In this document: positions 48,297 to 51,204 of the stretch, piece after piece
Position numbering within the stretch: the stretch's first letter is position 1
Layout of the letters: every line of letters begins with the position of its first letter
Assembly: GCA_001443495.1 (NCBI GenBank)
Contig: LDXR01000008.1
Span: 58,987 to 122,986, forward strand
DNA from: a candidate division NC10 bacterium CSP1-5
Lineage (GTDB): Bacteria; Methylomirabilota; Methylomirabilia; Methylomirabilales; CSP1-5
Length of the DNA stretch: 64,000 bases
Direction: 5' to 3'
The notes under the pieces: model-generated
Told to the model about the DNA's origin: nothing
Databases searched by the model: none
Seen by the model: only the letters and a program-made list of their open reading frames with translations
Program-made: the position numbers and the translations under genes

Positions 48297-49433
48297 CTAC
48301 GGTCTTTGGAGGACTTCCTGGGCAGCCCGGATGCCGTCACCGAGTTTTACCGGGTACCCCACCTCCGAGAGCGTCAGTTCCAGCGCCGAGAGTGCAACGA
48401 CCACATCCGTCGAGTCCGCGTACCCCATGGTGGCCAGGCGAAAGATCTTCCCCTTCATTGATCCCTGACCACCCGCGATGATCACCCCGTGCCTTGTCCG
48501 GAGCGTGTTGAGGATTGCACCACCATCGATCCCTTTCGGGACAAGCACGGCGGTCACCGCGGGGCTCGGTCGCTCGGCAAAGAGCTCCAAGCCGAGGGCA
48601 GTGATCCCCGCCCGCATGGCGGCCGCGAGTCTCTCGTGGCGGCGGAAGATATTGGGGAGCCCCTCACTCCGGATCATCCTGAGGGTCTCCCGCAGTCCGA
48701 CGACCAGCGAGATGGCCGGGGTGAAGCGAGACTGGTTCTTGAGCAGATGTTTCTGTTCCGCCGCGAAGTCAAAGTAATACTTCGGCAGGCGAGATCGCTC
48801 TACCGCCGCCCACGCCTTCCGGCTGACCCCGACCATGGCCAGGCCAGGCGGCAGCATGAGGGCCTTCTGCGAGCCGGCCACCACCACATCCAACCCCCAA
48901 TCATCCATGGGAACGTCCACCACCCCCAGGCTGGTGATCGCATCCACCACCAAGAGGGTGGGGGTCTTTCGGACGACCCCGGCGATGGCCTTGATATCGT
49001 GGAGAACCCCCGTCGAGGTCTCGCTGTGGGTGCTGAGGACGACGGCGATTCGGGGATCCTTCTCCAGGGCGGCGGCCACGAGCCCGGGATCCACCGCCTT
49101 CCCGTAGGGGACGTCGATCGGCGTGAAGTTCACGCCGTAGGCCTGACAGATCTCTCCCCATCGCTCTCCAAACTTTCCGCCTCGGATCACCAGCGCCTTC
49201 TCGCCCGGCGAAAGGGTGTTGACCACCGCCGCTTCCATGCCTCCGGTCCCCGAGGCGGCGAAGAGGAAGACCTCTTCGGTCGTCTGGAACAGCACTTTGA
49301 GGCCCTCCCGCACCTCGGCGATGAGCGCCTCATACTCCGGGGTGCGGTGGTGGAGGATGGGATGGGCCATGGTCAGCAGGGCCTCGGGAGGGATGGGGGT
49401 CGGCCCTGGGGCAAAAAGGTGCGTCTTTTTCAT
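48297..49433 (-). CDS. Class V aminotransferase, serine-pyruvate/alanine-glyoxylate type
   Basis: A 378-residue PLP enzyme of the AGXT family. GPTPIPPEALLTMAHPILHHR is the start. SGTGGMEAAVVN binds the phosphate and GSQKALMLPPG (about residue 192) has the lysine that binds PLP. The adjacent gene is serA, so together they may run serine metabolism, with this enzyme as phosphoserine-type or serine-glyoxylate aminotransferase. True substrate unresolved. Confidence 0.85.
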   Translation of the reverse strand: MKKTHLFAPGPTPIPPEALLTMAHPILHHRTPEYEALIAEVREGLKVLFQTTEEVFLFAASGTGGMEAAVVNTLSPGEKALVIRGGKFGERWGEICQAYGVNFTPIDVPYGKAVDPGLVAAALEKDPRIAVVLSTHSETSTGVLHDIKAIAGVVRKTPTLLVVDAITSLGVVDVPMDDWGLDVVVAGSQKALMLPPGLAMVGVSRKAWAAVERSRLPKYYFDFAAEQKHLLKNQSRFTPAISLVVGLRETLRMIRSEGLPNIFRRHERLAAAMRAGITALGLELFAERPSPAVTAVLVPKGIDGGAILNTLRTRHGVIIAGGQGSMKGKIFRLATMGYADSTDVVVALSALELTLSEVGYPVKLGDGIRAAQEVLQRP

Positions 49434-49732: not shown

Positions 49733-50272
49733 GTGTCGCACCTCAAGAGCCGGATGCACGTGAGACAGGCGTTGTGTGTGCTGGTCGTGGCTGGCCTCGT
49801 ATGGGGGCAGGGTCCGGTCGGGAGCGCGGATGCGCGTTCCCCTCAGGTGGCCGTGGAAAAGCCGGCACCTGATTTCACCCTGACTCTGCTTTCGGGAGAG
49901 AAGGTTCGACTGGCAGATTTTCGAGGGAAGGTCGTCCTCTTGAACTTCTGGGCCTCCTGGTGACCGCACTGCCAGCGGGAGTCTCCCGTGCTGATCAAGG
50001 CCTACGAGACGTTCAAGGACCGGGGGGTGATGTTCCTCGGCGTGAGTATCTGGGATACGGAGGAGGCGTCTCGACGATTTGTCCAGGAGCGTCGCGTCCC
50101 CTATGCCGTCGGACACGATCAGGGCGACCGGATTGCCAGGCTCTATGATATTCAGGGGACGCCGACCACCTTTCTCGTTGCCCGCGATGGCACCGTGGCG
50201 GCTGTGGCCCGGGGGGGCATGGCGCTGGAGACCCTGGCGGCGGTTCTCGAACGACTCCTCGAAGGCCGATGA
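49733..50272 (+). CDS. TlpA-like thioredoxin selenoprotein (in-frame TGA as selenocysteine)
   Basis: A TlpA/ResA-type exported thioredoxin of 179 residues read through a TGA at 49961-49963. Signal peptide about 1-36 (a GTG start at 49733, with GGAGGAG four bases ahead); then the AhpC/TSA-type fold [20 protein letters not shown] and [10 protein letters not shown]. The next codon is TGA, then CCG CAC TGC (P-H-C), where the family has W-C-x-x-C. The frame continues without further stops: [11 protein letters not shown] is the cis-proline strand (GTPTTF). TGA thus replaces the first active-site cysteine (position 77). A hairpin follows 9 bases on. Selenocysteine is by far the best reading. The next gene overlaps the stop by four bases. 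Confidence 0.85.
49961..49998 (+). promoter_or_regulatory. SECIS-like hairpin after in-frame TGA
   Basis: CAGCGGGA (49973-49980), GTC apical loop, TCCCG, a two-base TG bulge, then CTG close a stem of three plus five pairs. The loop is about 20 bases after the TGA, as in bacterial SECIS elements, which usually carry a GU in the loop and a bulged U on the stem. Confidence 0.55.
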
Positions 50273-51204
50273 CTGCATGGAAAGGCCGCGTAAAGGGTAC
50301 CTTGATGGTCCTCGGGGCGGCGACGGCCTGGGGGCTTATGGGGACGGTGGCCCGGTATCTCTTCACCGCGGAGGAAGTCGGTCCTCTCCCGCTGACCGCT
50401 ATTCGCTCGAGCCTCGCTGTCCTTATTCTCGTCGCGGGGCTTTTCGTGTGGGATCAGCGGCACTTGCGGCTGCCGCTGCAGGATGTGCCCTTGGCCGCCC
50501 TCGTAGGAGTGGCCGGCCTGGCCATGGCCAACGTCACGTACTACTACACCATCAGCCTCACCAGCGTGGCCACCGCGATTCTCCTCCAATACATGGCGCC
50601 GATCCTGGTCGCCCTGGGCTCCGTCCTCTTCTTGAGAGAGCGCCTGACAAGGATGACACTCCTCGCCTTGGGCGTGGCCGTGGGCGGCTGTTTCTTCATG
50701 GTGAAAGGGTACGATCCGACGCACCTCCGGCTCAATCTTCCGGGCCTGATCAGCGGGCTCGTCTCGGCGTGCGCCTTTGCGGGGTACACCCTGCTCACCA
50801 AGCGGGCCGTGGCGCGGATCCCTGCCTGGACGCTCCTGGCATACGCGTACGCCTTCGCCACCCTCTTCTGGTGGATCGTGACACCGCCCTGGCGTCTCCT
50901 GGCCGAGGGGTACCCCCTTCGTCTCTGGGCGATCTTCTTCCTGATCGGTGCCGCCGGGACCGTGCTTCCGTTTGCCCTGTACACTTTCGGCCTCACGTAC
51001 CTGCCTGCCACCCAGGTCAGCATCGTCAGCACGATGGAACCGGTGGTGGCTGCGGGCGCCGGGTTTGCGCTTCTCGGGGAGGCGCTCGACTGGTCCCAGC
51101 TCTTCGGGGGGGCCCTGGTGGTGACGGGGGTGGTGCTGGTCCAGCGAGGGTCCGCGGCGGCCCGGAGTGTTCCCGAGGCGATGCCGGCAGGGCACCGAGG
51201 GTGA
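50269..51204 (+). CDS. EamA/DMT-family transporter
   Basis: A 311-residue drug/metabolite-type transporter: two repeats of five helices, the first with GTLMVLGAATAWGLMGTVAR, the second with LPGLISGLVSACAFAGYTLL. EamA families export amino acids, drugs or intermediates. It starts inside the selenoprotein's stop (ATGA) and ends seven bases before the cis-prenyltransferase. Substrate unknown. Confidence 0.85.
   Translation: MTAWKGRVKGTLMVLGAATAWGLMGTVARYLFTAEEVGPLPLTAIRSSLAVLILVAGLFVWDQRHLRLPLQDVPLAALVGVAGLAMANVTYYYTISLTSVATAILLQYMAPILVALGSVLFLRERLTRMTLLALGVAVGGCFFMVKGYDPTHLRLNLPGLISGLVSACAFAGYTLLTKRAVARIPAWTLLAYAYAFATLFWWIVTPPWRLLAEGYPLRLWAIFFLIGAAGTVLPFALYTFGLTYLPATQVSIVSTMEPVVAAGAGFALLGEALDWSQLFGGALVVTGVVLVQRGSAAARSVPEAMPAGHRG

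Follow-up and report, generated by a model that had tools for sequence, protein, structure and literature searches.

The central question raised by this locus is whether the single TGA within an otherwise open thioredoxin-like frame terminates translation or specifies selenocysteine (Sec). The frame runs on the + strand from position 49733 to 50272 of the window, the whole 64,000-nt stretch of DNA analyzed here, and would encode a TlpA/ResA-like selenoprotein of 179 residues with Sec77. It starts at a GTG (49733) preceded by GGAGG 5 nt upstream, with an alternative ATG start at 49754, is open on either side of the internal TGA, and ends at a natural TGA stop (50270-50272). The original prediction described thioredoxin features on both sides of the internal TGA, and the match to Pfam AhpC-TSA, covering residues 41-157, bears this out. 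It also placed the TGA exactly at the first cysteine of W-C-x-x-C, which is where we find it: the putative Sec codon (49961-49963, +) occupies the first active-site position of W-U-P-H-C and is residue 77 counted from the GTG at 49733. Cys80, the resolving residue of U-x-x-C, is encoded by a TGC at 49970-49972 (+) and is invariant in alignment A1. A hydrophobic N-terminal segment followed by A-D-A (49754-49837, +), read by eye from the translation, forms a putative export signal.

The read-through protein matched Pfam AhpC-TSA (PF00578; E 3e-32) with 111.6 bits and Redoxin (PF08534) with 90.9 bits, above gathering thresholds of 26 and 26.6, respectively. Thioredoxin_8 was matched as well, and the matches extend over residues on either side of the TGA. 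Among named families, ResA, DsbE, and TlpA come closest, each scoring below its curated NCBIfam cut-off, with 127 bits for ResA (NF002854; cut-off 170) and 66 bits for DsbE/CcmG (TIGR00385; cut-off 123). The ResA-like WAxxUGC protein model (NF041054; cut-off 300) gave 48 bits (E 1e-12); this UGC-containing TlpA family has a ResA-like fold in common with the window protein, but carries UGC where the latter carries UPHC. The closest solved structures are those of ResA (Bacillus; PDB 1st9 and 4nmu), and CcmG and TlpA are also among the closest solved relatives. ResA, CcmG, DsbE, and TlpA resemble the window protein in sequence, domain layout, N-terminal export signal, and active-site position, but have Cys-x-x-Cys where it has U-x-x-C. 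By homology only, its function would be of the TlpA/ResA type.

Conservation of the TGA was assessed by searching 60 related genomes for homologues, of which the best 30 loci were kept in full. Exactly one in-frame stop was present in 25 of these 30; it was always TGA, never TAA or TAG, and always at the codon of residue 77, and the remaining five have Cys at that position. The ten best matches all carry TGA. They are the window gene itself, genes from five of its genus's six other members, and those of every one of the four members of a second family; from G002, also of this genus, came no more than a weak match to a paralogue. Loci fetched later were picked for having TGA, and were used in the SECIS test and excluded from the 25/30 frequency. 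For this family, a locus from the same order (L041, genome G013) has the same sequence as L072, from NC10 bacterium RIFCSPLOWO2_12_FULL_66_18, consistent with a Methylomirabilota lineage. When Cys homologues were aligned, as the original prediction had proposed, their Cys fell opposite the TGA; an in-frame UGA where homologues have Cys is a criterion for bacterial selenoproteins.

The genome from which the window derives (G000; 2.77 Mb, 99.7% complete, a draft of 40 contigs) also encodes the machinery for Sec insertion. The original prediction had asked for selA, selB, selD, and tRNA-Sec (selC) in the same genome, with a lack of selA, selB, and selC counting against it, and all four genes are present. 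We identified selA (600 bits), selB (379 bits), and a single tRNA-Sec scoring above the Rfam cut-off (74 bits), which has a TCA (UCA) anticodon and shares its contig with selB at a distance of ~5 kb. The selD gene (404 bits; L048:1479-2529, contig C13 of G000) contains its own in-frame TGA, in GAG-U-ACK. In many Sec-using bacteria, selD itself encodes Sec.

A hairpin lies downstream of the TGA at 49974-49990 (+), with a stem of 7 bp in most relatives and 6 bp here (49975-49980/49984-49989), and a GTC loop at 49981-49983, separated from the TGA by 17 nt. The window's copy is weaker than most in the set, as the outermost positions (49974/49990) are an unpaired A/G and the next pair is G-U. The hairpin with GU in its loop that the original prediction described is thus present, although its stem begins ~10-11 nt after the TGA and not 9. 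Taken alone it is unexceptional, with a z of +0.32 relative to dinucleotide shuffles and 3.1% of synonymous recodings equaling it. Because a single hairpin could not be distinguished from shuffles, comparative tests were done on 39 distinct TGA-containing sequences that align without gaps over 48 nt. The 7-bp hairpin at columns 14-20/24-30 had 98.2% of cells paired across the 39 sequences, vs. 41-57% for slid partners. Changes on both sides were seen at four pairs, namely A-U/U-A/G-C/C-G at the base, A-U/G-C, C-G/A-U, and G-C/A-U; cells with both sides changed numbered 32, vs. 8.4 in shuffles. Covariation was 0.365 for the hairpin, vs. 0.128 when shuffled and 0.02-0.14 for slid partners. Since the hairpin lies within coding sequence, protein constraint was tested directly by synonymous recoding. 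A mean of 6.87 of 7 pairs formed in the TGA set vs. 3.83 in the recodings, with 4.28 of 7 as the best set mean in 1000 recoding rounds. Cys homologues (n = 91), obtained by a contig scan with Cys-codon patterns that returned almost only such homologues, averaged 3.14 of 7 pairs. It is this comparative evidence that lifts the hairpin well above chance.

The published bSECIS model, given in a 2026 review (PMC13188914), specifies a G in the first two loop positions, a distance of 16-37 nt from the UGA, and an MFE of -7.5 or less. The hairpin has a loop of the form G[U/G]N across the set (GUC in the window), 17-nt spacing, and -11.3 kcal/mol, and with covariation across the 39 sequences it upholds the SECIS-like element originally proposed. 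Judged by these sequence features, the TGA-linked hairpin is a standard bacterial SECIS. A covariance model (R1) built from the 39-sequence set recovered the window site at 62 bits and nothing comparable elsewhere in G000, where its other matches (best E 0.02) included no convincing selenoprotein sites. By model score, 83 of the 95 genomes in the class had an R1 match, the 39 training sequences being among these matches. Rfam SECIS_1 had no match in G000, but control genomes were equally silent; an Rfam scan of the locus gave a chance miRNA match only, and no Rfam family covers the window bSECIS.

Could the TGA instead be a recent nonsense mutation, or a sequencing or assembly error, in a gene for a Cys protein? 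A TGA is one base from TGC or TGT, and the genome that contains the window is a draft. However, dozens of loci in other genomes have TGA at the same codon, with no TAA or TAG; one of them is in a single-contig genome (G026), so assembly error is no candidate. Purifying selection also acts downstream of the TGA, where comparison of the window gene with nine relatives gave dN/dS values of 0.21-0.49, well below 1 and comparable with or slightly above those upstream. With the covarying hairpin in addition, we consider mutation or error vanishingly unlikely, and the earlier remark that the TGA is hard to explain as decay has held up. That the frame runs on past the TGA would equally be expected if UGA were read as Trp or Cys through code reassignment or SECIS-independent suppression. 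Yet TGA is also the terminal codon of the window gene and of nine among the 13 close relatives examined, indicating that it still works as a stop. The genome has a dedicated tRNA-Sec, selA, selB, and selD, and the hairpin accompanies TGA and not Cys codons, making this a very improbable explanation. For practical purposes, these observations rule out decay, sequencing error, and an altered genetic code.

A different alternative accepts the selenoprotein and assigns it a peroxidase-type or other redox role in place of TlpA/ResA-type disulfide exchange. The best Pfam model, AhpC-TSA, also covers peroxiredoxins, and no NCBIfam cut-off was passed. Disulfide exchange, in contrast, fits the U-x-x-C following W-A-S-W and the closest solved relatives (ResA, CcmG, and TlpA), and the Prx TxxU motif is absent. 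We therefore regard a peroxidase-type or other such role as unlikely.

In summary, a UGA that replaces Cys is conserved, the SECIS covaries, Sec machinery is present in the genome, and purifying selection continues past the UGA. The U-x-x-C TlpA/ResA-type reading of the original prediction is supported by the selenium genes, the covarying hairpin, and the Cys homologues aligned at the TGA. The locus very probably encodes an exported TlpA/ResA-type thiol:disulfide oxidoreductase with SelB-inserted Sec at the UGA, in a Methylomirabilota (NC10) bacterium. As in established SelB-dependent decoding, SelB carrying Sec-tRNA(Sec) would bind the hairpin 17 nt past the UGA, and Sec would be inserted in place of the first active-site cysteine. 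By analogy with thioredoxin-fold enzymes, the Sec77 selenolate would be the nucleophile toward a substrate disulfide, and the mixed selenide-sulfide would then be resolved by Cys80. The protein is presumably exported to the periplasm, the reaction probably runs in the reductase direction, and a CcdA/DsbD-type membrane protein may serve for re-reduction.

The locus was initially proposed as a probable new selenoprotein. It is a new instance, but its kind is not new, since UxxC selenoproteins with PF00578, PF08534, and cd02966 domains have already been catalogued (PMC13188914). The classes concerned are a UxxC Prx-like thiol:disulfide oxidoreductase (PF00578), a thiol-disulfide isomerase-like class (cd02966), and a redoxin family (PF08534); the UGC-containing TlpA family is listed there too. 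These UxxC selenoproteins share with the window gene the fold family, Sec as the first residue of UxxC, and a bacterial SECIS just downstream, and the window gene falls into this UxxC class by domain and motif, the two features compared. No paper naming the NC10 family was found in the open literature, most subscription papers lying outside that search.

Two more thioredoxin-fold genes with a conserved in-frame TGA occur in G000, outside the window. One (L174:1432-2919; G000:C13:74038-75522) has a Thioredoxin_8 domain fused to NHL repeats and a TGA in WTYC-U-INC, whose codon position is shared by all six genomes in which this type of gene was found. A paper search for selenoproteins with NHL repeats gave nothing relevant, so this fusion is possibly less well known than the window gene. 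The other (L173:1408-1938; G000:C4:64211-64741) encodes an exported AhpC-TSA-like protein with a TGA in WTHG-U-INS and has a CcdA/DsbD-like membrane-protein frame immediately upstream. Its family has the TGA in the same place at 13 loci, with U-INS in the G000 copy and its closest relative and U-x-x-C in the others; in the G000 copy, Ser stands at the position that the resolving Cys occupies in most relatives.

A tree of 85 sequences, with weak support at its deep forks, requires three changes of the Sec label, and the window's clade comprises 36 Sec sequences and one Cys sequence. The latter (L036; G019:C155:8109-8609) is a Cys homologue nested inside the Sec clade and is consistent with a Sec-to-Cys replacement. 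A divergent upstream gene resembling pyridoxal-phosphate aminotransferases (48297-49433, -; named by reading the sequence) is common to the nine relatives among the ten best matches (L019-L027), and the locus is syntenic in the genus and a related family. Downstream, an EamA/DMT-type transporter ORF (50269-51204, +; named likewise) has an ATG that overlaps the selenoprotein stop (ATGA), which suggests co-transcription of the two and nothing beyond; their pairing is kept in L019-L021 and more weakly in L024-L026.

The same review (PMC13188914) cites a MAG from Methylomirabilota in which 63 selenoprotein genes are predicted. For this phylum, where a selenoproteome of unusual size was recently predicted, the present set adds a clean, covariation-backed collection of SECIS elements. 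Tentatively, the family might be a lineage-specific subfamily of exported UxxC TlpA-like selenoproteins, vertically kept and expanded in the Methylomirabilota class, with its own strongly conserved SECIS and a dedicated envelope redox task, such as the maturation of cytochrome c or copper proteins, in these largely uncultured bacteria. Gene prediction that knows TGA only as a stop codon would break this conserved redox protein of the envelope in two, or cut it short, throughout an entire order of uncultured bacteria.
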